A stretch of DNA of 33,752 nt from a virus. Each line of letters begins with the position of its first letter. The first letter of the stretch is position 1. The translations under genes were made by a program, and so were the position numbers. The stretch covers positions 1 to 33,752 of the IMG/VR virus record IMGVR_UViG_3300034198_009209. One strand, given 5' to 3'. The notes beneath the pieces were generated by a model that saw nothing but the letters and a program-made list of their open reading frames with translations, ran no database searches and was not told the DNA's origin. This document shows, in pieces, positions 6,257-33,752 of this stretch.

Positions 6257-6276
6257 CATCAAAATTAACAATATGT

Positions 6277-6290
6277 ATATTTATATAAAA
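6277..6290 (+). promoter_or_regulatory. ATATTTATA promoter-like motif, copy 1
   Basis: ATATTTATA followed by TAAAA, 20 nt before the ATG at 6306, in a 49-nt gap. One of eight exact intergenic copies of the 9-mer. The promoter role is inferred from recurrence and position. Confidence 0.55.
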
Positions 6291-6305
6291 TAAGGTTAAA
6301 ACAAT

Positions 6306-6956: not shown

Positions 6957-6968
6957 TAGGCATAAACC

Positions 6969-8288: not shown

Positions 8289-8307
8289 AACTTGATGATG
8301 ATTTTAG

Positions 8308-8344
8308 CCCCGTTATATTTATAATAAAGTATAACGGGGTTTTT
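8308..8344 (+). terminator. Intrinsic terminator with promoter motif inside the hairpin
   Basis: A perfect 10-bp stem, CCCCGTTATA paired with TATAACGGGG, with a 12-nt loop, is followed by five T residues (8340-8344). It lies 19 nt after the stop at 8288. The four consecutive G-C pairs stand out in this A+T-rich DNA. The 9-mer ATATTTATA (8315-8323) straddles the stem and loop. Confidence 0.85.
8315..8328 (+). promoter_or_regulatory. ATATTTATA promoter-like motif, copy 2 (inside terminator)
   Basis: ATATTTATA followed by ATAAA, ending 28 nt before the ATG at 8352. It overlaps the left stem and loop of the terminator, so the 8352 gene could be transcribed independently of the upstream unit. Promoter function is inferred. 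Confidence 0.5.
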
Positions 8345-8351
8345 ACTGAAT

Positions 8352-13945: not shown

Positions 13946-16900
13946 AAAAGATTGATGTCGGCATTGATAAAATTGACAAAATATATCATATTTCAGATAT
14001 ACATATTCGTACATTAAAACGACATCGAGAATATCGTGAAGTGTTTGAAAACATGTTTAATTATATTGCTCGAACCAGTACTGGAGCTAGTATTGCAGTT
14101 GTTACAGGTGATATTGTACATAGCAAATTAGATATGTCTCCGGAGCTAGTTCAAATGCTTGTTGATTTTTTTAATGGATTTGAAATACCTACAATTGTTA
14201 TTTTAGGTAACCATGACATGAACTTAAATAATATGCATCGAATTGATGCTGTAAGTCCCGTATTAGATGTTATACAAAATCCTAATATAATTTTTATAAA
14301 AGAAAACGGATTATTTGAATTAGGTGGTATTACATGGAATCATATGGCTGTTGATATAGCGCCATCCGAATATATACGTGCCGATCAATTTGATGCTACA
14401 TATAAAATTGCATTGCATCATGGAGCGGTTAATAGTGCAAAAACAGATATTGGATATCAAATATCAAATGAAAATGTAGGTGTTGATTTATTTGATGGAC
14501 ATGATATTACATTATTAGGTGATATACATAAACCGGCACAATTTTTAAATGAATTAAAAACCGTTGCTTATCCAGGATCACTTATTCAACAAAATCATGG
14601 TGAAGCATTGGATCATGGTATCTTAGTATGGGATATTGAAAATAAATCAGCTGATTTTGTTGAAATTCAAAATGATTATGGTTATATTACAATTGAAGTT
14701 GAAGGTACAAAAGTAATTAAATATCCACATCGTATTCCAAATAAACCTCGCGTGCGTATCAAATTTAATGACACGTCCGCTGCGGATATGAAAAAATTAA
14801 TTGCATCAATACGCAAAAAATTTAATGTTCAAGATATAACCATACAACGAAGTGTTACTAATATTAATAACGAAGCTTCATCATCATTTGCAATTGGAAA
14901 TGTACGGGATGTAGAATATCAAAACACTCTCATTACAGATTATATTGCATTAAATTTTCCTCAAGCTACTGCAGAAGAAACTGATGCAATTCGACATATC
15001 AATCGAACAATAAATTCAAAATTACCTGCAGTAGAATCTGTCAGACACATGACATGGCATCCTATTCAATTTGAATTTGATAACATGTTTTCATATGGGG
15101 AAGGCAATGTTATAAATTTTGAAAATATGCAAGATGTATGTGGTTTATTTGCTGCAAATACATCAGGTAAGTCTTCTTTATTAGATGCAATAACATATAC
15201 TATTTTTGATAAATGTAGTAAAACCGGAAAAGCTCATGAAGTTTTAAATAATAAAAAAGTTACATTCCGAGGTAAGTTTACATTTGAAATGAATGGTACT
15301 ACATATACAATTGAACGTACTGGTATCAAACAAAAAAATGGTCACGTTAAAGTATTAGTAGATTTTTATACTGATACAGAAAATTTAAATGGTGAAGAAC
15401 GCAGTGATACAAATAAATCAATACGTAGATATTTAGGTACATATGATGATTTTATTTTAACTGCATTCTCACTTCAAGCTGATAATAATAATTTCATTGA
15501 AAAGTCTCAACGAGAACGTAAAGATTTACTTTCACAGTTTTTAGATATTACGGTGTTTGAACAGTTATATCAATTAGCATCTGATGAAATCAAAGAAACT
15601 GCCGGAAAACTAAAAGAATATAAGAAAACGGATTTTGCTGAAATTATTGTTCATAATGATTCTATTATATTAAACAATCAAGATACTATATTAGAATTAG
15701 AACAACATGAAAATGAATTGCAGGAAACAAGGAATACCTTGCAAGAAAAAATTGTTGCTTTAATTGAAACAAAATTACCTACTACATATGATGGTCCGGA
15801 TATTAATGCATTAGAACAACAAGAAACTGAATTAACAAAAACTATAGAATCTATATTATCGGATATTGATACTGCATACGCAGGAATACAACTTATAAAA
15901 ACAAATATCGCACAAGCAAAGAAAAATATACGAACAAATTATAATGAAACTCAATTACAACATCACGTAGATACATTGAACCAATTACGATTAGAATTTA
16001 CAGAATTGCGTGATGAAATTAAAAATCAAAAAGGAATTATCGATGCAAAAGAAGAAAAAATTAAACATCTTGAATCTCATGAATATGATCCAAACTGCAA
16101 ATACTGTACATCTAACGTTTTCGTACAAGATGCAATTGAGGCACAAACTACAATTGATCAAGATCGAAACATATTAAATGAATTGATTAATCGATATGAG
16201 ACTAACAAAAATTCTATAGACGCTTTACAGATTTATGAAACTCAGTATAAAGAATTAACTAAAATACAAGATTCAATAACAGAAAGCCAAAATTCTTTAA
16301 ATGTAAAAGAATTAAAATTAGAATTATTAGAAAGTGATTTACAAACAAGAGAATCGGAACTAGAAACATGTTTAGAACGTCAAGAATCATTTCGAAAAAA
16401 TGCAACGGCAATAATTCATAATCAGACTGTAGATTTACATATTGCAACATGTAAAGAAAGTATCGAATCATGTTCAACTAAAATAAAATCTACGCAAGAA
16501 ACAATTAAATCATTGTTTGGTGCAATTGAAGTAGCAAAAACAAATAAAGCAGCTGCCATGACACAATTGGATTCATATCAACAATTGGAAACAGAATATA
16601 AAGCATTTGAATATTATTTGCAAACCGTAAAACGTGATGGAATTCCATATGAATTAATTTCAAAGGCAATGCCAAAAATTGAAACTGAAATAAATAACGT
16701 ATTGAATCAGGTAGTAGATTTTAATATGGTTCTTCAAAGTGATGGAAAAAATATTAATGGTTATATCATATACGATGAAGATAACTTTTGGCCATTAGAA
16801 TTAACAAGTGGTATGGAGCGATTTATTTCATCGTTGGCAATTCGAATAGCATTGATCAATGTTTCAGCGTTACCACGTCCTAATTTTATTGCAATTGATG

Positions 16901-17079
16901 AAGGTTGGGGAAGTTTGGATGCAGAACATATTTCTGCAGTAGTTAATTTATTTGATTATTTTAGAACAAAATTTGATTTCTCAGTAATTATATCTCATGT
17001 AGATTCTATGCGAGATATGGTTGATAATTTAATAGAAGTAAACAAGATAAACGGATTTAGCCAGATTCAGCACAGTTGA
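13936..17079 (+). CDS. 47-46: Fused SbcD-SbcC (gp47-gp46) recombination nuclease/ATPase
   Basis: One uninterrupted 1047-residue frame carries both subunits of the Mre11-Rad50 complex. The nuclease part (about 1-340) has the metallophosphatase motifs D21-x-H23, G58-D59-xx-H62, GNHD at 91-94, H161-H162 and G195-D-x-H198. The ATPase part starts near 350, with Walker A A406-x4-G411-K412-S413, a long coiled coil from ~560 to 900, a zinc hook C721-x2-C724 at its apex, signature 'LTSGMERF' from 956 and Walker B D988-E989. In T4 the counterparts gp47 and gp46 are separate polypeptides that resect DNA ends for recombination-dependent replication. The start overlaps the primase stop by 10 nt. All catalytic residues I checked are present, so it should be active. 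Confidence 0.92.
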   Translation: MDIKKIDVGIDKIDKIYHISDIHIRTLKRHREYREVFENMFNYIARTSTGASIAVVTGDIVHSKLDMSPELVQMLVDFFNGFEIPTIVILGNHDMNLNNMHRIDAVSPVLDVIQNPNIIFIKENGLFELGGITWNHMAVDIAPSEYIRADQFDATYKIALHHGAVNSAKTDIGYQISNENVGVDLFDGHDITLLGDIHKPAQFLNELKTVAYPGSLIQQNHGEALDHGILVWDIENKSADFVEIQNDYGYITIEVEGTKVIKYPHRIPNKPRVRIKFNDTSAADMKKLIASIRKKFNVQDITIQRSVTNINNEASSSFAIGNVRDVEYQNTLITDYIALNFPQATAEETDAIRHINRTINSKLPAVESVRHMTWHPIQFEFDNMFSYGEGNVINFENMQDVCGLFAANTSGKSSLLDAITYTIFDKCSKTGKAHEVLNNKKVTFRGKFTFEMNGTTYTIERTGIKQKNGHVKVLVDFYTDTENLNGEERSDTNKSIRRYLGTYDDFILTAFSLQADNNNFIEKSQRERKDLLSQFLDITVFEQLYQLASDEIKETAGKLKEYKKTDFAEIIVHNDSIILNNQDTILELEQHENELQETRNTLQEKIVALIETKLPTTYDGPDINALEQQETELTKTIESILSDIDTAYAGIQLIKTNIAQAKKNIRTNYNETQLQHHVDTLNQLRLEFTELRDEIKNQKGIIDAKEEKIKHLESHEYDPNCKYCTSNVFVQDAIEAQTTIDQDRNILNELINRYETNKNSIDALQIYETQYKELTKIQDSITESQNSLNVKELKLELLESDLQTRESELETCLERQESFRKNATAIIHNQTVDLHIATCKESIESCSTKIKSTQETIKSLFGAIEVAKTNKAAAMTQLDSYQQLETEYKAFEYYLQTVKRDGIPYELISKAMPKIETEINNVLNQVVDFNMVLQSDGKNINGYIIYDEDNFWPLELTSGMERFISSLAIRIALINVSALPRPNFIAIDEGWGSLDAEHISAVVNLFDYFRTKFDFSVIISHVDSMRDMVDNLIEVNKINGFSQIQHS

Positions 17080-19815: not shown

Positions 19816-22314
19816 ATGAATAAAATAACAGTCTTATTTCCCGGAGGATTTAAACCATTGACAGGAGCACATTTAGATTTAGCAAATCGATATGCACAAG
19901 ATCCGAATGTAGAACGAGTAATACTTTTAATCGGACCTAAAGAACGAGATGGCATTACTAGAGATAAAACTATAGAAATGTTTGATATCTTAAATGATAA
20001 TCCAAATGTTGAAATACAACCTACAGAATTTAATTCTCCAATCATGGCTGCGTATGAATATCTATTTGCATTACCACAAGATGCAACGGGACGTTATGCC
20101 ATGGCGGCTTCTACTAAAGGAGATGATTATGTACGTGCAAAAGATTTTGTTCCAAATGTAGATAAATATGCAACAATTGGTGATAAAAAAGGCCGTACTA
20201 TTCCACGTGGAATTGATGCAACAGAATTAAGTATTAATGTAGATCCGTTAGCATATTTATCCGGAGATCCTGTATCAGCAACAGCCGTTCGTAGTGCATT
20301 AGTTAATAATGATTATGAAACGTTTCGGTCATCATATCCTCAATTTGAAGATGCTAAAGTAAAAAACGTTTGGCAAGTATTGAAAGGTGTTCAAGAAGCA
20401 AAGCTATTCAGTGTAGAATGGATGAAAACCCATTTAAAAGAATCTGTTGATCAGTTTATTGAAGGAATGATGTTTCCTGCCGAAAAACAAAGACACACAC
20501 AAAAAATTAAAAAATTACGTTCTTTTTTAGAAAAACATCGGGGCAAATCGTTTGTATATGATTTTGATGATTTTCAAAAAACAGTTGTTGGTGCAAAATT
20601 ATTAGAAAATATTATTAAAGAAAATTATATTACTAGATCAGAATTAGCATCGATTGAATCAGCAGTAGATGGATTTTTTAAGCATTATGGTATAGATGTA
20701 GATTTCCAAGGCAAGTTTACACACTTTATCGATCGATTAAATGATCCTAGAAATGAGGCACCTATCTATACAGATGAACTTAAAGATTTCTTTGAAGACT
20801 TAGCAAATGAATATGGTGATAAAATTGCAAGACAACTACGTTTAGATCGACCTACCGGTGTTGGTTCTGATTATCAATTTGATATTCCAATTCATATGCC
20901 ATTCATGCTTCAATGGAATCCGCGTAAAGAAATGATAGAATTGATACCAAGAACTATTAAAAAACAGCGTAATAGATGGCAATCAAATAATCCAGAAGAT
21001 ATTATTTATACAATCGAATCTCGTATGAAAACTGGAGGAATTTTAACCGAAGGTGGTGCTGCCGGTCATATGGCACATCCATGGGATGATCATGGATTAT
21101 CATTTAATGATGTTAAAGAAATAATTTCACGAGCATTATCTGGTAGATTGGATATAGAACAGTCTGTAACTGAAAAGACAGATGGACAAAATATTTTGGT
21201 TACATGGAAAAACGGACAACCTGGATTTGCTCGTAATAAAGGTACTATCATTAATCCAATGACGCCTGATCAACTAGTTGCAGACTTTGAAAGAAAGTAT
21301 CAAGAGTCTATACAAAAAAATGGAGCTGAAGCAGCGGCTGGATATAAATTAGTTGTAGATGCATTTAAAGAAATGTCACAAGATATTACCGCAGCATTAA
21401 CAAATGTACCGGCAGCAGAGTTAGATCGTATTTTTAAAAACGGCCGGGTATTTGCTAACATGGAAATTATTTATCCAGCAACACGCAATGTTATTGCATA
21501 TGATAAAGCACACCTACAATTTCATAATCTTGTAGAATATGATGAAAAAGGAAATACAGTTGAAACTGATTTAACCGGAGGCGCATTAATGCAGAAGGTT
21601 ATAGAAGATGCAAATTCACACATGCAAAATACATTTTCATTTATTCCTCCGCAACGTATTAAATTAGGTCGAGTATATGATTTTGAAGATCAACAAGCAG
21701 CGTTTTTTAATGAAGTTGATCAATTACAACAAAGATATAATTTAAAACCAACTGATTTAATCAGTGAATATCATAAGGCTTGGTGGCGAGATGTTATTAA
21801 AACAAAAGCTGAGGAATTAGGATATGATATACCGGAAGATATATTAAATACATTAATCTATCGTTGGGCATTTTATGATAAATCTACAAATATTGCAATG
21901 CTTAAAAAACAAATTGGAAATCCTGAATTTGTAAATTGGGTAACTGAATTTGACAAAGCAGATTTTAAAAAGTATCATAAACAAAACTTAGAACCATTTG
22001 AATCTATCTTTTTAAGATTAGGAGTCGTTGTATTACAAAATGCATCTAACTTTTTAGCAGCAAATCCTAATCAGACAGTACAAACTATTAAATCAGAATT
22101 AACCCAACTTATCAAAGACTTACAAACGTCAAACAATCCGGCTACACTTGCAAAATTAGAATTAGAACTTAAACGAATTCAAAAGTTAGGCGGGTTTGAT
22201 GCAATTGTACCATCAGAAGGTGTAGTATTTACATATCAAGGTAATACATATAAAATGACAGGGGCATTTGCACCGGTAAATCAAATTTTAGGAGTGTTAA
22301 AATACGCACGCTAA
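19816..22314 (+). CDS. Cytidylyltransferase/NMNAT-type domain fused to ligase-like domain
   Basis: An 832-residue, apparently bifunctional protein. Residues 1-~195 form a HIGH-superfamily nucleotidyltransferase, with 'GGFKPLTGAHL' (G10-L20, H19 in the HxGH position) and the closing 'SATAVR' (154-159) that contacts ATP. Residues ~440-832 resemble a covalent nucleotidyltransferase of the DNA/RNA ligase type: motif I K454-T-D-G457, a motif III-like 'ANMEIIY' with E550, motif IV 'EGVVF' at 801-805 and motif V K813 in 'YKMTG'. The linker contains 'ILTE', a candidate gp21-type cleavage site that would release the ligase part starting at 'GGAAGHMAHPW'. The N-domain could make NAD or activate a nucleotide; the C-domain could seal nucleic acid ends. 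Substrates are unknown. Confidence 0.75.
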   Translation: MNKITVLFPGGFKPLTGAHLDLANRYAQDPNVERVILLIGPKERDGITRDKTIEMFDILNDNPNVEIQPTEFNSPIMAAYEYLFALPQDATGRYAMAASTKGDDYVRAKDFVPNVDKYATIGDKKGRTIPRGIDATELSINVDPLAYLSGDPVSATAVRSALVNNDYETFRSSYPQFEDAKVKNVWQVLKGVQEAKLFSVEWMKTHLKESVDQFIEGMMFPAEKQRHTQKIKKLRSFLEKHRGKSFVYDFDDFQKTVVGAKLLENIIKENYITRSELASIESAVDGFFKHYGIDVDFQGKFTHFIDRLNDPRNEAPIYTDELKDFFEDLANEYGDKIARQLRLDRPTGVGSDYQFDIPIHMPFMLQWNPRKEMIELIPRTIKKQRNRWQSNNPEDIIYTIESRMKTGGILTEGGAAGHMAHPWDDHGLSFNDVKEIISRALSGRLDIEQSVTEKTDGQNILVTWKNGQPGFARNKGTIINPMTPDQLVADFERKYQESIQKNGAEAAAGYKLVVDAFKEMSQDITAALTNVPAAELDRIFKNGRVFANMEIIYPATRNVIAYDKAHLQFHNLVEYDEKGNTVETDLTGGALMQKVIEDANSHMQNTFSFIPPQRIKLGRVYDFEDQQAAFFNEVDQLQQRYNLKPTDLISEYHKAWWRDVIKTKAEELGYDIPEDILNTLIYRWAFYDKSTNIAMLKKQIGNPEFVNWVTEFDKADFKKYHKQNLEPFESIFLRLGVVVLQNASNFLAANPNQTVQTIKSELTQLIKDLQTSNNPATLAKLELELKRIQKLGGFDAIVPSEGVVFTYQGNTYKMTGAFAPVNQILGVLKYAR

Positions 22315-23825: not shown

Positions 23826-24153
23826 AAAATATTGGGCATGGATAATAGCAGGTATCGGCACAATTATTGGAATTTTATTTTTAACTAGAAAATACAATGA
23901 TCGTAAATTAGATAAATCTGCTAAACAGATTGATGCTAACAATCAACAAATAGACCAATTGCAAGGTAAGATTGAAGTTATTGAAGAACAGCGGGTTGAA
24001 GTTAAAGAAGAAATTAAACAACAAGAAAAAATAATTGAAGCGCTTGAAGATAAAAAAGAAAACATTACAATTCAAGAACCAACAGATGTAACATCTGCAA
24101 AAGCAAATATTATTAAAAAAACAAATCGTGGTAGAAAAGCTAAAAACAAATGA
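23812..24153 (+). CDS. Small membrane protein with coiled coil, i-spanin-like candidate
   Basis: The ATG at 23812 is preferred over the in-frame ATG at 23800 because GGAG lies at the right distance before it; this gives 113 residues. The N-terminus 'MKLIKKYWAW' leads into one membrane helix at about residues 8-24 with positive charges on both sides. The rest is a long charged coiled coil (~30-85) and a Lys/Arg-rich tail. This N-anchor plus coiled-coil architecture is that of inner-membrane spanins. It overlaps the previous gene by 14 nt and the next, also membrane-associated, gene by 4 nt (ATGA). No lysozyme or holin is visible nearby, so lysis function is tentative. Confidence 0.5.
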   Translation: MKLIKKYWAWIIAGIGTIIGILFLTRKYNDRKLDKSAKQIDANNQQIDQLQGKIEVIEEQRVEVKEEIKQQEKIIEALEDKKENITIQEPTDVTSAKANIIKKTNRGRKAKNK

Positions 24154-24521
24154 AAAATTTATTAATCATACTATGTTTTTTGCCGTTATTTAGTTACGGA
24201 CAAACAATGCCTGATACGTGTTTTACTGAAGAACAAATATTTGATATTTCATTTACGATAGATTCATTATATGAAGTGTGCGATATTAATGATCAAATCA
24301 TCGAAGAACAAAAACAATTGATATCAGATCAAAAGCATTTAATAAATTTAGATTCGTTGCAGATTAATTATTTAACAATGCAAACTAAATTACTTAAAAC
24401 TAACATTGATTTATATGTTGAACGAGAAAAAAGATTACAACCACGTTGGTATGATAATAAAGCAATTTGGTTTAGTGGCGGAATTCTTTCAACAATATTA
24501 ATATTCCAGGTAGCAAAATAA
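24150..24521 (+). CDS. Exported coiled-coil protein with signal peptide and C-terminal anchor
   Basis: A 123-residue protein with a clear N-terminal signal peptide: 'MKNLLIILCFLPLFSYGQ' has a short basic start, a hydrophobic core and a likely cleavage before Gln, a pattern frequent in Bacteroidota secreted proteins. Residues ~45-95 are predicted coiled coil, and ~105-122 form a hydrophobic segment ('IWFSGGILSTILIFQV') that could be a membrane anchor. No proper lipobox is seen, so it is not a typical o-spanin, but it forms an overlapping pair with the preceding membrane protein, as spanin genes do. Next to it, after one base, comes the terminase gene. A membrane-bridging lysis accessory is the best guess. 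Confidence 0.5.
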   Translation: MKNLLIILCFLPLFSYGQTMPDTCFTEEQIFDISFTIDSLYEVCDINDQIIEEQKQLISDQKHLINLDSLQINYLTMQTKLLKTNIDLYVEREKRLQPRWYDNKAIWFSGGILSTILIFQVAK

Positions 24522-24522
24522 C

Positions 24523-26103
24523 ATGGCACAGCCTAACATAAAGCAAATAATACAGCAGCAGTACATGATGTGTGCTAAAGATCCTGTATTCTTTATGCGT
24601 AATTATTGTTATATCCAACATCCTAAACGAGGAAAAATAAAATTTAATTTATTTCCATTTCAGGAAGAATCATTATCTGAATTGCGAGATAATAGATATA
24701 ATGTTATACTTAAGTCTCGGCAGTTAGGTATTTCAACTTTATCTGCAGGATTTGCTCTTTGGAGTATGTTGTTTGCAGAAGATTTCAATGTATTAGTTAT
24801 TGCAACAACACAGGAAGTAGCAAAAAACTTAGTAACAAAAGTGCGAGTGATGCATGAAAATTTACCTAGTTGGTTAAAAGGTACGGTTGAAGCAGATAAT
24901 AAATTATCATTGAAATTTAAAAATGGTTCACAAATTAAAGCAGTATCATCAGCAACAACCGGCGCACGTTCAGAAGCATTATCATTGTTAATTGTAGATG
25001 AGGCCGCATTTATTCGAAACATTGAAGAAATATGGATAGCATCGCAAGCAACATTATCAACGGGTGGTGGAGCAATTGTATTATCTACACCTAATGGTGT
25101 GGGTAACTGGTTTCATCAAACATGGGCTGATGCTGAAGCTAAAATTAATGGATTCCACACAATTAAATTGCATTGGACCGTACATCCAGAACGAGATCAA
25201 CAATGGCGTAATGAACAAACACAATTATTAGGTGAACGTGGTGCGGCACAAGAATGTGACTGTGACTTTGTTAGTTCAGGACATACAGTTGTTGACGGTC
25301 CATTGTTATTAGAATATGAAAATCTTACAGAAGAACCATTAGAACGTAGAGGATTCGATGGAAATTATTGGGTGTGGGAATATCCAGATTACGCAAAAGA
25401 TTATACCGTAGTAGCAGACGTTGCACGTGGTGATGGGGCTGATTTCTCTACATTCCAAATATTTGATGTAGAATCAGTACGACAAGTTGCAGAATATAAA
25501 GGTAAAATTGCACCAAATGATTTTGGTAATATGCTTGTCACAGTAGCTACAGAATGGAATAATGCATTGCTAGCAATTGAAAATGCAAATATAGGTTGGG
25601 CAGCAATACAACCGGCATTAGACCGAGGATACCAAAATTTACATTATACATATAAAGATGATGGATATACAGATGCATCGGTACAATTGAGAAAAGGTTA
25701 TGATATGAAAGATAAGAGCCAAATGGTTCCTGGAGTATCTACAACATCTCGTACTAGACCATTAATGATATCTGCATTAGAAATGTATATGCGTGAAAAA
25801 ACTCCGGCTATTCGTAGTAAGAGACTAATACAAGAACTATTGGTATTTGTATGGCTAAATGGTAAAGCTCAAGCACAACAAGGCTATAACGATGACTTAG
25901 TAATGTCATTTGCAATTACTCTATGGTTACGTGATACTGCATTAAAATTACGTCAACAAGGAATTGATTTGAATAAGCGAGCATTGTCTCAATTTCAAAA
26001 AACAAATCCAGTTATATATACAGGAAAATCTAGTAATACAGATACCGGATGGAACTGGAATCCAGGAGATGGAGATCAAGATCTAACTTGGTTGATACGA
26101 TAA
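24523..26103 (+). CDS. 17: Terminase large subunit, T4 gp17-like
   Basis: A 526-residue packaging motor protein (T4 gp17 is 610). The ATPase has 'KSRQLGIST' at 64-72, where the Walker A Lys appears at the start (K64) instead of the classical GKT/S position, as in deviant terminase P-loops. Walker B is 'LLIVDEAAF' with D159-E160, and a coupling motif lies in 'LSTPNG'. The nuclease part begins with D299 in 'VVADVARGDGADF'; later acidic residues such as those in 'YNDDLVMSFA' complete the RNase H-like site. The enzyme cuts concatemeric DNA and drives it into the prohead through the portal, whose gene follows 44 nt downstream. No obvious gp16-like small subunit was identified. Confidence 0.93.
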   Translation: MAQPNIKQIIQQQYMMCAKDPVFFMRNYCYIQHPKRGKIKFNLFPFQEESLSELRDNRYNVILKSRQLGISTLSAGFALWSMLFAEDFNVLVIATTQEVAKNLVTKVRVMHENLPSWLKGTVEADNKLSLKFKNGSQIKAVSSATTGARSEALSLLIVDEAAFIRNIEEIWIASQATLSTGGGAIVLSTPNGVGNWFHQTWADAEAKINGFHTIKLHWTVHPERDQQWRNEQTQLLGERGAAQECDCDFVSSGHTVVDGPLLLEYENLTEEPLERRGFDGNYWVWEYPDYAKDYTVVADVARGDGADFSTFQIFDVESVRQVAEYKGKIAPNDFGNMLVTVATEWNNALLAIENANIGWAAIQPALDRGYQNLHYTYKDDGYTDASVQLRKGYDMKDKSQMVPGVSTTSRTRPLMISALEMYMREKTPAIRSKRLIQELLVFVWLNGKAQAQQGYNDDLVMSFAITLWLRDTALKLRQQGIDLNKRALSQFQKTNPVIYTGKSSNTDTGWNWNPGDGDQDLTWLIR

Positions 26104-26147: not shown

Positions 26148-27989
26148 ATGGCGTCTTTAAGAAAACGTTTACAGAATTTATTTAGTACTAATGTAATTGT
26201 TAGAGCGTATGGTAAAAACCAACTACGCGTAGTCGATACTAACAGATTACAATCATCTGGAAACTTAGCTCAAAGTAAAGTAGCAGATAGATATACTAGA
26301 TTACATGGCGCAAATAAACATCGCGTCGGTGGAATGGGTGGATATGATTCCAATTATTACATGCACCAAAATCGTATGCAGTTGTATGCTGATTATGAAA
26401 TGATGGATAAAGATCCTATTATTTCTGCAGCACTTGACATTTACTCAGATGAATCAACACTAGCAGATCAATTCGGTGATATTCTAACAATTAGAACAAA
26501 TAAAACTAACATACAAAAAATACTTTATAATTTATTTTATGATGTATTGAACATTGAATTTAATTTGTGGACATGGATTAGAAACGTTTCTAAATATGGA
26601 GATTTCTTCCTTAAATTAGATATTGCAGATGAATATGGAATAATTAACGCACGTCCTTTTTCTAGTTACGAAATGGAACGTTGGGAAGAATTTAATGAAT
26701 CAACCGGAGAATATGAAATTAAATTCAAAAATATTGCATCTGAACAAATGACATATGATACATTTGAAATTGCACATTTCCGTATGTTATCAGATTCTAA
26801 CTTTTTGCCATATGGTAAATCAATGTTAGAAGGCGCTCGTAAAGAATTTCAAAAATTAATGATGATGGAAGATGCAATGTTAATTCATCGTATCATGCGT
26901 GCACCAGAAAAACGTATTTTTAAAATTGATATTGGTAATATTCCGCCAAATGAAGTTGATACTTTCATGGAACAAATTATCAATAAAATGAAAAAAATTC
27001 CACATATTGATCCTCAGACAGGTAATTATAATCTTAAGTTTAATCTTAACAACATGTTAGAAGATTATTATTTACCGGTGCGAGGAGGACAATCATCTAC
27101 TACAATTGATACATTACCGGGAATGACATTTACGGGTATGGATGATATTGAATATATCAAAGATAAAATGATGGCAGCTCTTAAAATTCCTAAGCCATTC
27201 TTAGGATATGCAGAAGCAGTTGAAGGTAAGACTACATTAGCATCTATGGATATTCGTTTTGCTAGAACTATTGAACGTATACAAAAAATTGTAGTATCTG
27301 AATTACATAAAATTGCAATTGTACATTTATATTCACAAGGATTTGAAGGGGAAGATTTAGTTGGATTTGAATTAGAATTAACGGCTCCGTCAATAATTTA
27401 TGATCAACAAAAAGTTGCATTAATGAATGAAAAAATAACATTAGCTAATGCAATGAAAGATTCTAAATTAGTTTCAGATAAATACATATATGAGTATATC
27501 TTTAATATGTCAGAAGAACAATGGTTGCAAGAACGTACCAATGTTGTTGAAGATCTTAAACTTCGTTTCCGACAAAATCAAATTGAACAAGAAGGTAATG
27601 ATCCTGCAGTCACGGGCGTATCATTTGGTACTCCACACGATTTAGCCACAGTACATATGTCAAGTAATGAAGTTGAAAATAAAGATGTAGGAGGCCGTCC
27701 AAAAGAAGGAATAAAATCCGGACAACATAAAAATGCATTTGGATGGGATGTTACCGGCCGTAAAGAATTGAAACAAGCTTTCGATCCAGAAAACCAAAAA
27801 AATTCATTTCAACCTGATCCTAAATTTAAAAATCAAGCCGGAGCTGTCGCAGTAGAAAGTTTTATTAGGAAATTAACATCTAAAAATAAAAATAAAGTTT
27901 CTATTATAACTGAATCATTAAAATCAACTCAAACAAACGAACATGATCAGGATTCCGGAACCATGTTAGATGAAAATAACATTTTATAA
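26148..27989 (+). CDS. 20: Portal protein, T4 gp20-like
   Basis: A 613-residue portal (T4 gp20 is 524). The stretch from ~85 to 480 follows the gp20 pattern: 'DKDPIISAALDIYSDE', 'VSKYGDFFLKLD', 'YGKSMLEGARKEFQKL', 'HRIMRAPEKRIFKIDIG' and 'LKIPKPFLGY'. Portals form a dodecameric ring at one head vertex through which DNA enters and to which the neck binds. The C-terminal ~110 residues extend beyond the core and are polar; they contain 'SIITE', an (I/L)-x-E candidate gp21 site near the end. It lies after the terminase gene, behind its own promoter-like motif. In T4 the sheath and tube genes lie between 17 and 20, but here they do not. Confidence 0.93.
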   Translation: MASLRKRLQNLFSTNVIVRAYGKNQLRVVDTNRLQSSGNLAQSKVADRYTRLHGANKHRVGGMGGYDSNYYMHQNRMQLYADYEMMDKDPIISAALDIYSDESTLADQFGDILTIRTNKTNIQKILYNLFYDVLNIEFNLWTWIRNVSKYGDFFLKLDIADEYGIINARPFSSYEMERWEEFNESTGEYEIKFKNIASEQMTYDTFEIAHFRMLSDSNFLPYGKSMLEGARKEFQKLMMMEDAMLIHRIMRAPEKRIFKIDIGNIPPNEVDTFMEQIINKMKKIPHIDPQTGNYNLKFNLNNMLEDYYLPVRGGQSSTTIDTLPGMTFTGMDDIEYIKDKMMAALKIPKPFLGYAEAVEGKTTLASMDIRFARTIERIQKIVVSELHKIAIVHLYSQGFEGEDLVGFELELTAPSIIYDQQKVALMNEKITLANAMKDSKLVSDKYIYEYIFNMSEEQWLQERTNVVEDLKLRFRQNQIEQEGNDPAVTGVSFGTPHDLATVHMSSNEVENKDVGGRPKEGIKSGQHKNAFGWDVTGRKELKQAFDPENQKNSFQPDPKFKNQAGAVAVESFIRKLTSKNKNKVSIITESLKSTQTNEHDQDSGTMLDENNIL

Positions 27990-28032: not shown

Positions 28033-28881
28033 ATGAAGAAATTAAAACATTCAAAATATAAAAATACCGGTATTTTGTTTGAAATGTTAGTTAGAAAATT
28101 AACTTCAGAGACATTATCATCAAATAAATCGGTAACCATCGATATAATTAAAAAATACTTTGGTCGTAATACCGAATTATCAAAAGAACTACAATTATAC
28201 AATGCATTGCTTAAAGAACAATTTCGAAGTGAAGCACAAGGTTTAGATTATATACGTACTGTTAAATCAACACACACAAAATTAAACCAAACCGTATTGA
28301 AACGTCAACGATATAATTTAGTAAAAGAAATTTCTGAAAAATTTGCATTTACTGATGTATCTAAATTACATATAAACAATTACAAAGTTCTAGCATCAAT
28401 TAACATGATATTTGAACATGAAGAAACTGATAATCCAAAACAATTATTAGAATGTAAAAATGCAATTATTGATAATGGATTAATTACAGAACGCGTACAA
28501 GTTAAAAAAGATGCAATTTTAGAAACATATGAATCGCAACCAAAAGATTTACGTTTATTAACATATAAATTATTGGTAGACAAATTCAATCAAAAATATT
28601 CAGTATTAAATGAATCGCAAAAACAGTTATTGAACAAATACATAACTCATGTATCAGATACAGCTGCATTGCGAGAATATGTTCAAAAAATTATTCCCGT
28701 GATTAAAAAAGATTTATCATCACAAGCAAAACATATAACGGATCCAGCTACTAAAATTAAAGTATCAAAATTATCTGAAATGCTATGTAATGTAGAAACA
28801 ATGAAAGTAATCAAAGAATCTCATATTCTTTCATTACTTAGATATTTTGATTTAGTTAAAGAACTTAAGGAAATTCATTAA
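28033..28881 (+). CDS. Helical protein between portal and protease, prohead-core candidate
   Basis: A 282-residue, Lys-rich, almost wholly alpha-helical protein without membrane segment or signal peptide. It begins 'MKKLKHSKYKNTGILFEMLV', a start I associate with conserved hypothetical proteins of T4-like environmental phages, though I cannot name it. In T4 the genes between portal (20) and protease (21) are 67 and 68, prohead core components; this gene occupies that place but is longer than either. Its stop overlaps the next ATG by one base (TAATG), suggesting translational coupling. A core or assembly-chaperone role is inferred from position. Confidence 0.5.
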   Translation: MKKLKHSKYKNTGILFEMLVRKLTSETLSSNKSVTIDIIKKYFGRNTELSKELQLYNALLKEQFRSEAQGLDYIRTVKSTHTKLNQTVLKRQRYNLVKEISEKFAFTDVSKLHINNYKVLASINMIFEHEETDNPKQLLECKNAIIDNGLITERVQVKKDAILETYESQPKDLRLLTYKLLVDKFNQKYSVLNESQKQLLNKYITHVSDTAALREYVQKIIPVIKKDLSSQAKHITDPATKIKVSKLSEMLCNVETMKVIKESHILSLLRYFDLVKELKEIH

Positions 28882-29585
28882 TGAAATCATTTCTAAAAGA
28901 AATAGAAGATAAATTCATTGAATTAGAATCCGAAGTAGATAACACTTCCGAATCTGATGAAGAATTAGATGAAATGTCAGCTACAGGTGCTGTCGCCGGA
29001 TTCAATACTCCCGCGGCATTTGCTTCTCCCGGAAAATGGAAAAATAAAAAAGCTAAATATGAATCTAAAGTTGATGAATCTATAAATACGCCACCAAATT
29101 TTCAGTGGGATAAAGAAGAATATCAAACTCCAGAATCTGAAGAAGAAGAGTACATGGATAAATTTCCATTTGCATATTCCGAATCAGATTGGCAACATGC
29201 AAACTATGAATATCCATCTAAAAATTTATCAAATACTCCAGGTACCTCTACAAAAAAACATGCATCTTTAAAAGTTGGAAATGACAAAAAACAAAAAACA
29301 TCAAAAATTGAAGAAGTGTTAGAACAAAAATATGAACAACTTATAGAAGGATATCAACAATATAAATCTGGAGATATACAACCATCTAAAAAAGTTAAAG
29401 AGAGTATTCGAGAAATTGCTAAAAAATTACAAGAAATTGAAACCGTATTACATCACACATCTAAATTAAAAAATGAATCTGGAGTAGCAGCATCACAATA
29501 TGGACCGGGAACAACAAAAGCATTAACAAAAATTTCGGAACGATTAATTAAAATATCAGAAAGAGTAAGATCATTAGGGGAATAA
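28881..29585 (+). CDS. Acidic head-region protein, function unknown
   Basis: A 234-residue protein I cannot name. It starts 'MKSFLKEIEDKFIELE', an amphipathic helix containing an L-x-E motif, continues with a Glu/Asp/Ser-rich segment, then 'SATGAVAGFNTPAAFASPG' at 33-51. Residues ~70-130 are acidic and aromatic, and ~145-234 form charged helices. The combination of an N-terminal helix, acidic body and position between portal and protease suits a prohead core protein like T4 gp67/gp68. It is coupled to the previous gene (one-base overlap), and the protease starts one base after its stop. Confidence 0.45.
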   Translation: MKSFLKEIEDKFIELESEVDNTSESDEELDEMSATGAVAGFNTPAAFASPGKWKNKKAKYESKVDESINTPPNFQWDKEEYQTPESEEEEYMDKFPFAYSESDWQHANYEYPSKNLSNTPGTSTKKHASLKVGNDKKQKTSKIEEVLEQKYEQLIEGYQQYKSGDIQPSKKVKESIREIAKKLQEIETVLHHTSKLKNESGVAASQYGPGTTKALTKISERLIKISERVRSLGE

Positions 29586-29586
29586 T

Positions 29587-30216
29587 ATGTCAAAACAACT
29601 AATAGTAGAATATATGCCATTCAAGCCCGTAGGTTCGTTAACAGAATCAAATGGAGCTGCATATGGGATACCTGGTGGTTTTGTAGTACAAGGAGTTTTA
29701 CAAAGAGCTGGAGCTAAAAATCAAAACGGTCGGGTTTATCCTAAACCAATCTTAGAACGCGAATGTCGTAGATATCAACAAGAATATATCAATCAGCATC
29801 GTGCTTTAGGTGAATTAGATCATCCAGAATCTTCGGTAGTTAACTTAAACAATGTATCTCATAATGTTTTGAAAATTTGGTGGGACGGTGATGACTTAAA
29901 AGGTGCAGTACAAATTTTAGATACACCATCTGGAAAAATTTTAAAAGAATTATTTAGAGCTGGTATTACATTAGGAATTTCTTCAAGAGGTTTAGGTTCT
30001 GTAAAAGAATTACGTAATGAAGGTACTGTAGAAGTACAAGAAGATTTTGAATTGATTTGTTGGGACTTTGTATCAAATCCATCAACCCATGGAGCTTTTA
30101 TGAGACCAACTCATATGAATGAATCGGTAAATAAAAATAAAACGAATAATAAATACGTAAATGTTAATAACATAATCACATCAATTTTATGTGAAGATGG
30201 TAAATGTAGGATATAA
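29587..30216 (+). CDS. 21: Prohead core protease, T4 gp21-like
   Basis: A 209-residue serine protease of the T4 gp21 type (T4 gp21 is 212). Catalytic His79 is in 'GELDHPES' and the nucleophile is S132 or S133 in 'LGISSRGLGS'; the region 'FELICWDFVSNPSTHGAF' is also characteristic. In T4 this enzyme sits in the prohead core, activates itself and cuts scaffold, capsid and internal proteins after (I/L)-x-E. Likely self-processing sites here are 'SLTE' (17-20) near the N-terminus and 'SILCE' near the C-terminus. GGGG lies just before the ATG. The stop is one base before the next start. Confidence 0.92.
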   Translation: MSKQLIVEYMPFKPVGSLTESNGAAYGIPGGFVVQGVLQRAGAKNQNGRVYPKPILERECRRYQQEYINQHRALGELDHPESSVVNLNNVSHNVLKIWWDGDDLKGAVQILDTPSGKILKELFRAGITLGISSRGLGSVKELRNEGTVEVQEDFELICWDFVSNPSTHGAFMRPTHMNESVNKNKTNNKYVNVNNIITSILCEDGKCRI

Positions 30217-30217
30217 T

Positions 30218-30598
30218 ATGAATACTCCAAATTTAAAACGAATCTTAGAAATAATGACCGGTGAAGAAGAATCAGTAGCTTTAACTAAAGAAGAAAAGCG
30301 ACAGTTCATGCAAGATGTAGCAAATTTTTCTGCACTAGGAGAATCAGTATACGGAAGTGGAAAATTAAAAGATCTTACGGAACGAGTTCGTAATATTGTA
30401 GAAAAAGCACATCATATTATGACTGAAGATAAAGATTGGTTTGATAACGTTACAGTTAGTCGTCATGCAAAAGGATTAACTGAAGCATTTAAAGTTTTTG
30501 AATCTACTGCGAAAGAAGTAAATCAATTGCAACAACGCTTAGAAGCTGCATATGAAGATATCGGTTCGCATCTAGGTAAATACTATGAGGTTGGATAA
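30218..30598 (+). CDS. Small helical head-region protein, unknown
   Basis: The ATG at 30218 is chosen over an in-frame GTG at 30191 because it follows the protease stop by one base and has AGGA about 7 nt upstream; this gives 126 residues. The protein is helical and charged, with no membrane segment, Cys cluster or motif I recognise. Its last two thirds ('LKDLTERVRNIVEKAHHIM' and 'EVNQLQQRLEAAYEDIG') are likely long helices or a coiled coil. Position between protease and scaffold suggests a small head assembly or internal protein. Confidence that it is a real gene is good because of tight packing; function is unknown. Confidence 0.5.
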   Translation: MNTPNLKRILEIMTGEEESVALTKEEKRQFMQDVANFSALGESVYGSGKLKDLTERVRNIVEKAHHIMTEDKDWFDNVTVSRHAKGLTEAFKVFESTAKEVNQLQQRLEAAYEDIGSHLGKYYEVG

Positions 30599-30605
30599 TT
30601 CAACT

Positions 30606-30622
30606 TATTTTTATATATTAAA
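30606..30622 (+). promoter_or_regulatory. Degenerate copy of the ATATTTATA motif
   Basis: TATTTTTATATATTAAA resembles the motif with two extra T residues and lies 10 nt before the ATG at 30633, in a 34-nt gap. It is weaker than the eight exact copies. Confidence 0.35.
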
Positions 30623-30632
30623 GGTATAAATA

Positions 30633-31109
30633 ATGAATAAGATAAAAAAACTATATCGTGACTTCTTTGGATTAAATGAACAAACATCGATGACTGGTAA
30701 ACCAGATCCTAGTAAAGATGTTGTGTTATCGCCAACTGATTCTAAAGATCCTAAAAAAGTACAAGCAGCACAAAATATATTAAAAACAACAAAAGGCCGA
30801 ATTCATATCGAAGAAGAATTAGAAATTGATGAAGCTACATTGGATAATAGTATCACAGAATATCAAGGAGGTGTTCAATGGATTGTAACAGATCCAGCAA
30901 CTGCTAAACATGTTATGCAAGATATTAGTCAATGGGCAACAAAAAAAGGCTTTACTATTATTAAGCGTAAAATATCAGGTTCGGGTAAAGTTGGATACAT
31001 TTATTTTAGATTAGGACAAGATCCTTCAAAAGAAGCACAACGAATTCAAGGATATGTATCACAGACTCCAGAAATTAAACAATTTCGTTTTAAAGTATTA
31101 GGAAAATAA
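30633..31109 (+). CDS. Small protein with possible cleavable N-terminal tag, unknown
   Basis: A 158-residue protein of unknown function. The N-terminus 'MNKIKKLYRDFFGLNE' is basic and amphipathic and ends in L-x-E followed by Gln, like a gp21-cleaved capsid-targeting sequence. Residues ~20-65 are polar and probably flexible. The C-terminal part (~75-158) looks like a compact alpha/beta domain ('GGVQWIVTDPATAKHVMQDI' to 'FRFKVLGK'). It sits between the protease and bS21 genes, with a degenerate promoter-like motif before it. A packaged internal protein is a reasonable hypothesis, but nothing in the sequence names its activity. Confidence 0.5.
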   Translation: MNKIKKLYRDFFGLNEQTSMTGKPDPSKDVVLSPTDSKDPKKVQAAQNILKTTKGRIHIEEELEIDEATLDNSITEYQGGVQWIVTDPATAKHVMQDISQWATKKGFTIIKRKISGSGKVGYIYFRLGQDPSKEAQRIQGYVSQTPEIKQFRFKVLGK

Positions 31110-31120
31110 ATAAATAAGTT

Positions 31121-31366
31121 ATGAGTAAAAAACAAAAACAACATCAACAAATTGTACCAGGAAATCCATTAGCAGTAAATGTAGTAGGAACGGAAATGTA
31201 TGATTTAGGTTATGCAATTAAAACCTGGAAACGAAAAGTAAAAAATGCCGGTATTTTAGAAACCGTTAAATCTAGAAAAGAATATATTAAGCCTAGTGTC
31301 GTTAATAGACAGCAACTACAAAGAGCTTCATATATACAAATGATACGAGATTTAAATTCAAAGTAA
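31121..31366 (+). CDS. rpsU: Phage-encoded ribosomal protein bS21
   Basis: An 81-residue basic protein that matches bS21 from about residue 28. 'YAIKTWKRKVKNAGIL' aligns with the conserved 'ALRRFKR..EKAG.L' segment of E. coli bS21, followed by 'RKEYIKPSVVNR' and the helix 'RASYIQMIRDL'. The 'KPSVV.R...A.YIQ' ending resembles Bacteroidota bS21 more than the Arg-rich E. coli tail. bS21 binds the 30S platform near the 3' end of 16S rRNA and affects mRNA selection; in Bacteroidota it helps hide the anti-Shine-Dalgarno. Residues 1-25 are an extra N-terminal part. The gene has no clear Shine-Dalgarno, starts 11 nt after its neighbour and is followed by a terminator. Confidence 0.82.
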   Translation: MSKKQKQHQQIVPGNPLAVNVVGTEMYDLGYAIKTWKRKVKNAGILETVKSRKEYIKPSVVNRQQLQRASYIQMIRDLNSK

Positions 31367-31394
31367 TTCGATATTACACATAAGTCTTAATTAC

Positions 31395-31423
31395 GCCCTA
31401 GCTAAAAAAGTTAGGGCTTTTTT
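31395..31423 (+). terminator. Intrinsic terminator after bS21
   Basis: A 9-bp stem, GCCCTAGCT with AGTTAGGGC (one G-T pair), has a five-A loop and is followed by six T residues. It lies 28 nt after the bS21 stop and separates the protease-bS21 group from the scaffold-capsid unit. Confidence 0.85.
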
Positions 31424-31558
31424 ACTGGTTTTTATTTTTTGCTTATATTTATTTTAGAATACGCTATTTTTCTTTTATATAGCGTTTATACTATATTAAA
31501 AATATTCTATTAAGATTTCAAATAATCTTATTTCCAAAAAACAAATTTAAGGAGAACT
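31424..31558 (+). promoter_or_regulatory. Leader of scaffold-capsid unit with inverted repeats
   Basis: This 135-nt gap contains a near copy of the promoter-like motif (ATATTTATT, 31445-31453). It also has a 7-bp inverted repeat, ACGCTAT (31461-31467) and ATAGCGT (31479-31485), and a small inverted repeat, AAGATT/AATCTT (31512-31529). A long leader with secondary structure is unlike the short gaps elsewhere and suggests special control of these very highly expressed head genes. Where transcription starts is not evident. Confidence 0.45.
31549..31554 (+). promoter_or_regulatory. Full Shine-Dalgarno AAGGAG before scaffold gene
   Basis: AAGGAG with a 4-nt spacer to the ATG at 31559 is the strongest ribosome-binding site I found in the window. 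Several other genes have shorter purine elements (AAAGGA, GGAG, GGGGA) and some have none. Confidence 0.7.
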
Positions 31559-32644
31559 ATGGCAAAATCTGATTTGCTAAAAGAAGCAATTGCTGATGCA
31601 CGTGCTGTTAAAGAAACTGCATTAGCAAACGCAAAAATCGCACTTCAAGAAGCTTTTGCACCAAGACTTGAAAGAATGTTGTCAAACAAACTACAAATGG
31701 AAGTCGACGGCGAAGAAGAAATGGAAGCTACACCAGAAATGGATATGGATGCTGAAATGGATATGGATGCTGGTGCTGAAGTAGAAGGTGGTGATGAGTT
31801 TAATTGGGTAGATAACGATCTATCTGCAGAAGTAGGCGGAACAACCTATGATTTTGAAGTTGGCATGGCTGGCGGTGAAGAAGAAATGGAAATGGGAGCA
31901 GAAGAAGAGCTTCCAGCTGAAGAACCTGAAACCGAAACAGGTGAGTATGAAGACATGGCTGAAGAATTAGATCTAGATGAAATTATTCGTGAGCTAGAAG
32001 AAACATTACCGGCTGATGACATGGTTGAACCAATGGGAGAAGGCTATGATGATGTAGATCTAGAAGAGTCATTGAAATCTTCAGGTATCGGAAAAGGCTC
32101 AGGCAAACCATCATATGGTAAAAAAGCTAAAGCTATTTACGAACAAGAAGAGGAAGAAGAAGAAGATTATACAGATGAATCAATTGATGAAATCATTGAA
32201 GCAATTCTTCGTGAAGAAGATGGAATGGAAGATGCGGAAGAACCAGCAATGGAACAAATAGAAGCTGAATTAGATGCAACGAAAGAAGAACTAGGCGAAG
32301 CATATCGTACAGTTAAACATCTTAAGAACATCATTAATGAAGTGAATCTTCTTAACGCTAAACTTCTTTACACAAACAAATTGTTCCGTAATTTTGAGTT
32401 GAATGAAGCACAGAAAATGAAAGTAATTGAAAATTTCGATCGCGCAGGCAACACAAGAGAAGTAAAATTAGTATTTAGTACATTGGCTGAATCATTTAAC
32501 CGACCAACTAAAAAGCGTGTTGTTAAAGAGTCATATGCATCTCGACCAGTTGCAACTACAGCTCCAAGAAAAGAAACAACGCAAGTTTTATCAGAAGGTT
32601 TTGAATTAGCTAACCGTTGGAAAAAATTAGCAGGATTGCTATAA
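31559..32644 (+). CDS. 22: Prohead scaffold/core protein, T4 gp22-like
   Basis: A 361-residue, extremely acidic protein directly before the capsid gene, the position of T4 gp22 (269 residues). The N-terminal ~45 residues are a basic/Ala-rich helix ('MAKSDLLKEAIADARAVKE', with an L-x-E at 7-9). Residues ~50-235 are dominated by Glu, Asp and Met, including a duplicated 'EMDMDA'. The C-terminal part from ~235 is helical, with 'NLLNAKLLYTNKLFRNF' near 262-278. Scaffold fills the prohead and is degraded by gp21 before DNA entry; many (I/L)-x-E sites are present. Codon choice (more CTT, GGT, AAC) differs from upstream genes, in keeping with high expression. It has the window's best ribosome-binding site. 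Confidence 0.85.
   Translation: MAKSDLLKEAIADARAVKETALANAKIALQEAFAPRLERMLSNKLQMEVDGEEEMEATPEMDMDAEMDMDAGAEVEGGDEFNWVDNDLSAEVGGTTYDFEVGMAGGEEEMEMGAEEELPAEEPETETGEYEDMAEELDLDEIIRELEETLPADDMVEPMGEGYDDVDLEESLKSSGIGKGSGKPSYGKKAKAIYEQEEEEEEDYTDESIDEIIEAILREEDGMEDAEEPAMEQIEAELDATKEELGEAYRTVKHLKNIINEVNLLNAKLLYTNKLFRNFELNEAQKMKVIENFDRAGNTREVKLVFSTLAESFNRPTKKRVVKESYASRPVATTAPRKETTQVLSEGFELANRWKKLAGLL
31736..31771 (+). repeat. 18-bp perfect tandem duplication in scaffold gene
   Basis: Two adjacent identical 18-nt units (31736-31753 and 31754-31771) encode 'EMDMDA' twice. The duplication keeps the frame and lengthens the acidic region. Confidence 0.8.
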
Positions 32645-32669
32645 AATTAAAAAAAAAGGAAAACAAAAG

Positions 32670-33752
32670 ATGAGTATTTCAAATTTATTACAAACGAATG
32701 ACTTCGTCCAAAGAAACCAAGCGAAAGCTTTGGCAGGAAAATGGGAGAAGACAGGACTTTTAGAAGGTCTTAGAGGTGAGACTGAAAAAGCCGGTATGGC
32801 TCAATTGCTTGAAAACCAAGCACGTCAATTAGTAAAAGAAGCTTCTGCAACAGGTATCGCAGCTGGATCAGAAGAATGGGCAGGTGTTGCTCTTCCATTG
32901 GTTCGTCGTATTTTTGCTGAATTTGCTGCAAAAGAATTCGTTTCAGTACAACCAATGAACTTGCCATCAGGACTTATTTTCTATCTAGATTTTAAGTATG
33001 GTACAGCTCAACCTGGATTTGATAATGACAACTTGAACAGAACAGGCGATCCATTTGGTTCTCCAAATGCAGATGACTCTATGTTCGGTGTTACTACTAC
33101 AACTGGTGATCCATCAGGAGGTCTTTATGGTGCAGGTCGTTTCGGTTATTCAATTAACGAAACATCAAGTGTTGCTGCAACAATTACTACTGGTTCAATT
33201 GCTGGATCTGGATCTGTTAACTTTGATAGTGATTTTACTAGTGCATTAGGTTCTTATAAAAGAATTACTGTTGCAACTTCATCTTTACCAGGTTTAGATG
33301 TTACTGCAATCCGTTCTTTCGCATTAGTTTCTGGATCTACTCCAATCGCTAACTATGCAGCATTTACTCAATTGAATACTACAACTAATGGATCAATTGA
33401 CTTTATTATCGCAACAGGCGCTGTAACAACTGGATCTTTCTCTTTGACAGTTAAGTATAGCAAACAACCTACTGATATCACTCGTGGTGATTTTGAAGAT
33501 AACGTAGGTAGTTATGCAAATGGATATAACGTTGATATCGATATTCCAGAAGTAAACCTTGAAATGCAATCAGAACCAATTGTTGCTAAGACTCGTAAGT
33601 TGAAAGCAGTTTGGACACCTGAATTTGCTCAAGACCTTAACGCTTACCACTCAATTGATGCTGAAGCTGAATTGACTTCGATGCTTTCTGAGTATGTATC
33701 AATGGAAATTGATCTTGAAATTCTTGATATGTTGATTGCAGCAGCTCCAACA
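32670..33752 (+). CDS. 23: Major capsid protein, T4 gp23-like (5' part only)
   Basis: An open frame of 361 codons runs to the right window edge with no stop, so the C-terminus is missing. 'LPLVRRIFAEFAAKEFVSVQPM' and 'GLIFYLDFKYG' (split by 'NLPS') are the gp23 signature after the N-terminal propeptide. In T4 residues 1-65 are removed by gp21; here a similar cut is likely near residue 57 ('LVKE' followed by 'ASATG'), although the P3 residue is Val. Residues ~160-268 are rich in Ser, Thr and Gly and look like an inserted surface domain before the conserved fold resumes at 'GDFEDNVG'. AAAGGA lies 10 nt before the ATG. Codon choice is like the scaffold gene's, consistent with very high expression. 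Confidence 0.93.
   Translation, partial: MSISNLLQTNDFVQRNQAKALAGKWEKTGLLEGLRGETEKAGMAQLLENQARQLVKEASATGIAAGSEEWAGVALPLVRRIFAEFAAKEFVSVQPMNLPSGLIFYLDFKYGTAQPGFDNDNLNRTGDPFGSPNADDSMFGVTTTTGDPSGGLYGAGRFGYSINETSSVAATITTGSIAGSGSVNFDSDFTSALGSYKRITVATSSLPGLDVTAIRSFALVSGSTPIANYAAFTQLNTTTNGSIDFIIATGAVTTGSFSLTVKYSKQPTDITRGDFEDNVGSYANGYNVDIDIPEVNLEMQSEPIVAKTRKLKAVWTPEFAQDLNAYHSIDAEAELTSMLSEYVSMEIDLEILDMLIAAAPT

Follow-up and report, generated by a model that had tools for sequence, protein, structure and literature searches.

The window (the whole 33,752-base stretch analysed here, which is the sole such virus record in its assembly) has T4-like gene content and carries, among its head genes, a gene for bS21, the ribosomal protein most often borne by phages. 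On the plus strand, the order is terminase, portal, two conserved proteins, protease, the genes at 30218 and 30633, bS21, a hairpin, a scaffold-like gene and the capsid gene. The features are as follows:

24150–24521, plus strand: exported protein with a signal peptide followed by Gln
24523–26103, plus strand: large terminase, T4-type (Pfam Terminase_6N, E 3.7e-12)
26148–27989, plus strand: T4-type portal protein (Pfam Portal_T4, E 5.9e-66)
29587–30216, plus strand: prohead protease (Pfam Peptidase_S77, E 9.7e-33; PHROG head maturation protease, E 5.4e-55)
30218–30598, plus strand: small conserved protein in the protease/companion interval (101/103 clade loci; no convincing family)
30633–31109, plus strand: companion gene, upstream of bS21 (AlphaFold2 model)
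31121–31366, plus strand: bS21 (PF01165, TIGR00030, PDB 7jil_z)
31121–31171, plus strand: clade-specific N-terminal tail of bS21, residues 1–17 (MSKKQKQHQQIVPGNPL)
31331–31333, plus strand: codon of Tyr71, aligned with Flavobacterium johnsoniae Tyr54
31395–31417, plus strand: terminator-like hairpin, then T6 (a similar hairpin lies at most 110 nt past the bS21 stop in 54/62 relatives)
31549–31554, plus strand: Shine-Dalgarno (SD) sequence AAGGAG of the scaffold gene (estimated pairing -8.2 kcal/mol)
31559–32644, plus strand: prohead scaffold-like protein, acidic, next after bS21 (pre-capsid position; N-terminus conserved with the immuto and Mel-JY01 equivalents; no convincing Pfam or PHROG family)
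32656–32660, plus strand: SD sequence AAGGA of the capsid gene (-6.2 kcal/mol)
32670–33752, plus strand: major capsid protein, gp23-like, continuing past the window end (54% identity to the Mel-JY01 capsid, 50% to the immuto capsid)

Judged by its profile matches, the ORF at 31121–31366 (81 amino acids, ATG start, stop codon within these coordinates) encodes a genuine bS21, as a preliminary description of this DNA had proposed. The protein matches Pfam Ribosomal_S21 (PF01165) at 36.3 bits, where the cut-off is 27 (E 4.5e-9), passes the curated cut-off of NCBIfam S21p (TIGR00030; 30.1 bits against 28.95) and matches the PHROG 'ribosomal protein S21' (E 3.5e-5). With the single sequence as the query, its top match among solved PDB chains is 7jil_z (E 4.5e-9), from the F. 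johnsoniae ribosome (PMC9723584), followed by 9i5v (8e-6), which carries the description Porphyromonas gingivalis ribosome, and by the remaining bacterial bS21s at 2e-3 or worse. A family profile searched against the PDB keeps this order (7jil 2.6e-13, 9i5v 4e-11, next chain 3e-7). The C-terminus aligns with that of 7jil and has a Bacteroidia-like C-terminal helix, which bears out the Bacteroidota-like C-terminus noticed earlier. The AlphaFold2 model, of moderate confidence (pLDDT 76, pTM 0.41), has helices at residues 26–43, 45–50 and 58–80, as expected for bS21, and leaves the tail unresolved; in a Foldseek search of this model against solved structures, no match was significant, the best being the mitochondrial bS21 6nu2_AQ (E 0.53). 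No Rfam match was found near the gene.

The preliminary description had placed bS21 inside a phage head operon. Its position among the terminase, portal, protease, scaffold-like and capsid genes stands, but the gene is not continuous with scaffold and capsid, as the hairpin at 31395–31417 intervenes. Because this terminator-like element comes after bS21, we read bS21 as the last gene of a protease-side transcription unit, with the scaffold and capsid genes beginning another. Presenting the late head block as a contrast to an early region also proved unwarranted, since such a location is typical: of 900 phages, 310 have the prohead protease no more than ten genes away from bS21 (PMC9723584).

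Some observations in the window lie apart from bS21. The motif TATTTATA occurs 21–36 nt upstream of eight gene starts (at 6278, 8316, 10462, 17080, 19792, 22315, 26127 and 28000), is strongly strand-biased in the window and in clade contigs (e.g. 38 to 8 in G002) and resembles a late promoter element; its reverse complement is the T4 late TATAAATA. A single 1047-amino-acid ORF (13936–17079) reads like fused T4 gp47-like and gp46-like recombination nuclease subunits, and an 832-amino-acid ORF (19816–22314) has a nucleotidyltransferase-like start followed by an apparent ligase-type domain.

The tailed bS21 clade and the companion gene

A bS21 search of IMG/VR yielded 52 loci. Thirty-eight are close relatives of the window locus, with the tail and the co-directional slot, whereas in ten loci with head genes the bS21 is tail-less and on the opposite strand, the arrangement described by Chen et al. 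Because this search was seeded with the tail peptide, which could bias tail conservation, we re-tested the conservation on loci recruited by the protease alone. In all 64 of these loci whose contig reaches the slot, bS21 is present on the same strand, lying co-directionally between the 30633-type gene and the scaffold gene (64/64 evaluable loci), and the tail is found in 62/62 loci with a complete bS21 gene. Ten long contigs carry one bS21 apiece, nine of them belonging to the tailed clade and one (G010) being of the Chen type. In a bS21 tree built from about 64 columns, the tailed phage proteins form one group and the cellular Bacteroidota proteins another. Most forks are unresolved, the phage clade is not nested in any host family, and no recent transfer from the sampled hosts is seen.

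The tail amounts to about 17 extra residues relative to F. johnsoniae bS21 (Leu29 of the window protein aligns with Ile12), so that the N-terminal addition reported earlier is present but shorter than the roughly 25 residues then given. It follows roughly the pattern M[NS]K[KH]xKQHxxI[VLI]PGN plus two residues. Over 42 distinct bS21 sequences, selection is purifying (pN/pS of 0.23–0.73 by segment), and residues 2–15 are the most constrained segment of the protein: mean entropy is 0.54 bits there, compared to 0.98 in residues 28–62 and 1.65 in residues 63–81, and pN/pS is 0.23 in the tail, 0.42 in residues 28–62 and 0.58 in the C-terminal part. Synonymous diversity is similar across segments (pS of 0.51 in tail codons versus 0.56 in the core), and therefore the constraint on the tail acts on the protein; the same closeness of values led us to reject a synonymous-constraint or RNA element.

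We found no counterpart of the tail in solved PDB chains, no KQH motif among 112 extracted Bacteroidota bS21 proteins and no match to the tail pattern in a scan of bacterial genome contigs. The best bS21 matches among 296 Bacteroidota genomes begin at residue 19 or later; some weaker ones start earlier. In the open-licence full-text literature, no paper joining bS21, phage and an N-terminal extension was found. The tail is absent from the Chen-type phage bS21s and the cellular bS21s that we examined and is apparently new. A divergent bS21 at 519–725 of locus L039 also has a long N-terminal addition, but a different one (MENPKKKQRARKSEMIVVGKPN), which may be distantly related to the tail. As a separate observation, the protease (615 amino acids, 2496–4343) and portal (1287 amino acids, 5909–9772) of the Chen-type contig L045 much exceed the usual length and seem to contain intein or homing insertions.

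The companion gene, which ends 11 nt before bS21, is found in 103/103 tailed-bS21 loci but is missing from every immuto-like, Mel-like and Chen-type locus. Its product begins MNKLKKLYRDFFGLxEQ and contains an LxE site, a start that we take to resemble a T4-type head-targeting peptide. The C-terminal domain (residues 77–156) is ferredoxin-like in the AlphaFold2 model. In a Foldseek search, a P. gingivalis 70S chain ranks first (E 3.6e-4) and several ribosomal chains, presumably S6, rank high. We nevertheless do not identify the companion as a bS6: the fold is suggestive, but S6, ACT and other folds tie at Z 10–11 and the hhalign probability against bS6 is 0.6%.

This setting bears on whether bS21 is itself a virion protein, packaged in the head via its tail and injected to act as the next infection starts; packaging of bS21 was raised by Chen et al. 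2022 (PMC9723584). The gene does lie among prohead genes, and an (I/L)xE site close to the N-terminus, like those of T4 head proteins that are cleaved by the prohead protease, occurs in the companion and in the products of the genes at 9925, 10490, 28881, 29587, 30218 and 31559. Yet bS21 alone among the head-block ORFs within 28033–32644 has no LxE site in its N-terminal region, and a search of three clade genomes found the tail motif in bS21 only, which is not what a shared capsid-targeting sequence would look like. We regard packaging as quite unlikely; the reading that we favour, developed below, is that bS21 acts on host ribosomes.

The window clade shares with the Bacteroidetes jumbo phages of Chen et al. 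head-gene adjacency, a Bacteroidota-type core, an aromatic residue at the Tyr54 position, a conserved neighbour gene of its own and a freshwater origin. It differs in orientation, since in their clades a–e bS21 and the head genes lie on opposite strands whereas all evaluable loci here have them on one strand, and in that the ten Chen-type loci that we typed have a tail-less bS21 and no scaffold SD, whereas the window clade has a tailed, terminator-ended bS21 gene and SDs on scaffold and capsid. By head genes, the nearest isolates are the phage Mel-JY01 (recorded host Microcystis elabens) and Flavobacterium phage vB_FspM_immuto_2-6A (NC_055915; hereafter immuto), the closest isolate with a Bacteroidota host. 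The Mel-JY01 RpsU (PP395634) occupies the same slot and strand in the protease/scaffold interval of a related T4-like head block, but it resembles non-Bacteroidota types (best PDB match 5nd8, E 1.3e-6; 7jil, 2.7e-3), has a shorter and different N-terminal addition and is not accompanied by a 30633-type gene. Immuto has a similar gene order but lacks bS21, the companion and the scaffold and capsid SDs.

Host and Shine-Dalgarno use

The signal peptide of the exported protein encoded at 24150 varies among clade orthologues, yet nearly all of them retain the Gln that follows it, and further exported proteins of large clade contigs have, as judged by eye, Gln in the same position. Such Q-rule signal peptides have been described as specific to Bacteroidetes rather than to the FCB group as a whole (PMC5837995). 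Combined with the type of bS21, they make a Bacteroidota host likely. A portal search for phage contigs in MAGs found nothing; the Flavobacteriales MAG G506 contains related phage contigs, in which no bS21 was detectable. Assigning the host from TTTG/TAnnTTTG promoter motifs was uninformative, as the positive control, immuto itself, has no enrichment. Mel-JY01 (L371–L372) has a slight excess of these motifs (13 versus 7.3 expected), and its recorded Microcystis host may deserve a check.

We computed SD energies with an assumed Bacteroidota-type 16S tail (AUCACCUCCUUUC), taking gene starts as the longest or homology-matched ATGs, which adds noise. In the window clade, an SD at or below -6 kcal/mol precedes the scaffold gene in 29/29 distinct leaders and the capsid gene in 98% of 46 distinct sequences. 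By comparison, among 59 immuto-like loci without bS21, this is true of 0/27 scaffold and 0/33 capsid starts, and among the Chen-type loci, with their tail-less bS21, of 0/6 scaffold starts. Across three clade contigs, SD core motifs at positions -16 to -6 number 0.50–0.56 per gene, versus 0.06–0.08 further upstream, and these rates exceed those obtained with all 40 mock anti-SD tails; near the starts of immuto, the Chen-type contig G010, FCL-2 and phi14:2, they number 0.05–0.08 per gene. SDs retained in all three clade contigs include those of capsid, scaffold and protease and of genes that read as sheath, SSB, UvsX/RecA, GroEL and GroES (with Pfam support for GroEL and GroES alone, on N-terminal fragments). 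To judge from these leaders, the placement of SDs on capsid, scaffold and other genes, unlike in the bS21-less immuto group and the Chen-type phages, is apparently new. Watson et al. 2020 had found phage bS21 and ribosome-binding sites not to be clearly related, and here the Chen-type phages carry bS21 without SDs, so that carrying bS21 does not by itself entail SDs.

Among 40 Bacteroidota genomes, the 23 whose bS21 is closest to that of the phage show no SD enrichment as a group (0.08 per gene), with G020 as an intermediate exception. A phage with a Bacteroidota-type bS21 thus makes use of SDs although its likely hosts do not. Either its bS21 may alter SD access or its host may be unusual.

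Under the latter explanation, the host would be an SD-using member of the Bacteroidota, the phage SDs and the tail would be unrelated, and bS21 would merely top up or replace host bS21. Several of the 40 genomes (G201, G249, G137, G307, G076 and G065) are indeed SD-enriched, and SD enrichment is also found in Mel-JY01 and Rhodothermus phage RM378. The bS21s of the SD-using genomes, however, are poor matches to the phage protein (E 4e-5 to 7e-4), the closest genomes being those without group enrichment, and the restriction of the Q-rule to Bacteroidetes also argues against a host elsewhere in the FCB group. We consider such a host a serious possibility, with somewhat less than an even chance.

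If instead bS21 alters SD access, the tailed protein would free the anti-SD, or otherwise let Bacteroidota ribosomes use SDs, so that SD-bearing phage mRNAs, among them those of capsid, scaffold, protease and further abundant proteins, would be preferred and SD-less host mRNAs would lose. The scaffold, capsid and genome-wide contrasts given above are all consistent with this, as are the indicated Bacteroidota host and the lack of SD enrichment in genomes with the most phage-like bS21. Other observations weigh against it. Tyr71 aligns with F. johnsoniae Tyr54, and 42/42 distinct sequences have either Tyr or Phe there; in F. johnsoniae, Tyr54 stacks on the anti-SD and matters for its sequestration (PMC9976891, PMC9723584), and the retained aromatic residue and C-terminal helix would be expected to conceal the anti-SD. 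For stimulation by ribosomes of F. johnsoniae that lack bS21, exceptionally strong SDs, below -13 kcal/mol, have been described as necessary (PMC9976891). The contrast in tail and SDs is between single clades and so is one evolutionary co-occurrence, and some sampled Bacteroidota genomes do use SDs. On balance, we think a change of SD access by the tailed bS21 rather unlikely.

Proposed action of the phage bS21 on host ribosomes

In F. johnsoniae, ribosomes without bS21 raise the translation of rpsU via an extended SD (PMC9976891). In 112 Bacteroidota loci, most of them Flavobacterium, host rpsU has SDs with a median of -18.6 kcal/mol, and 94% reach -13 or lower. The same calculation gives the phage bS21 gene a median of -0.6 kcal/mol, with 0/48 sequences at or below -7. 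The phage gene is homologous in its core to F. johnsoniae rpsU and shares the anti-SD-stacking aromatic residue, but it encodes an N-terminal tail that the host protein lacks and is without the extended SD of the autoregulated host gene, the latter difference being apparently new. Without an SD, the phage gene would stand outside the host rpsU autoregulatory loop.

Our main reading, which we consider probable, is that the phage bS21 replaces host bS21 in 30S subunits. We infer that it would be made late, with the head genes, and would displace host bS21 in the 30S subunits of a Bacteroidota host. The core keeps the helices of Bacteroidia bS21 and the aromatic residue that contacts the anti-SD by stacking, and the protein is therefore expected to occupy the same platform site, beside bS18 and bS6. 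As its mRNA has no SD, normal ribosomes that contain bS21 would translate it, independently of the host feedback loop, and by filling empty sites the phage protein would also lower host bS21 synthesis. The tail would then be the phage-specific working part, probably reaching the mRNA path or 16S rRNA and favouring phage mRNAs. In favour of this reading are the family membership, the purifying selection that is strongest on the tail, the fixed slot, the conserved aromatic residue, the missing SD and the Q-rule signal peptides. The bS21 genes of phages with a similar gene context are highly transcribed together with head genes (PMC9723584), and a phage bS21 can enter foreign ribosomes: that of the Pelagibacter phage HTVC008M, which unlike the window's is of Alphaproteobacterial type and has 67 amino acids, enters E. 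coli 70S ribosomes (Mizuno et al. 2019, PMC6375957). Counting against it are the moderate confidence of the structural model, with its unresolved tail and lack of a significant Foldseek match, and the poor resolution of the bS21 tree.

Those E. coli ribosomes are nearly inactive in vitro, with about 5% activity (PMC6375957), and replacement could therefore inhibit rather than redirect translation. The incorporated bS21 would in that case poison ribosomes, stopping host synthesis or adjusting capsid stoichiometry. The E. coli assay is heterologous, however, and such a brake fits poorly with a late structural region that needs high synthesis and with transcript data tying bS21 to late capsid-gene expression (PMC9723584); we hold it to be very improbable. 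Replacement of host bS21 and its rivals are not all mutually exclusive.

The core idea of the preliminary description, that a bS21 encoded near head genes acts late to select phage mRNAs, was already published in 2022 (PMC9723584). Chen et al. 2022 described freshwater Bacteroidetes phages with a late-expressed bS21 a few genes from terminase, portal, protease and capsid, and proposed a late ribosome takeover in which bS21 selects phage mRNAs on Bacteroidota ribosomes (PMC9723584). The SD comparison makes a sharper version of this mRNA-choice idea testable without proving it. In that version, the tailed bS21 would turn Bacteroidota ribosomes, which hide their anti-SD, into SD-using ones that select SD-bearing phage mRNAs over SD-less host mRNAs, an outcome that we judge unlikely.

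The clade offers handles on the role of phage bS21: its tail is short, near-invariant and deletable, and the presence or absence of bS21 in related phages forms a natural contrast that is matched by a difference in SD use. F. johnsoniae adds a host system whose bS21 has a known control over access to SDs. Should the tail change that access, these phages would make a specialised ribosome of viral manufacture; if it does not, the tail would still mark a phage-specific part of a widespread viral ribosomal protein.
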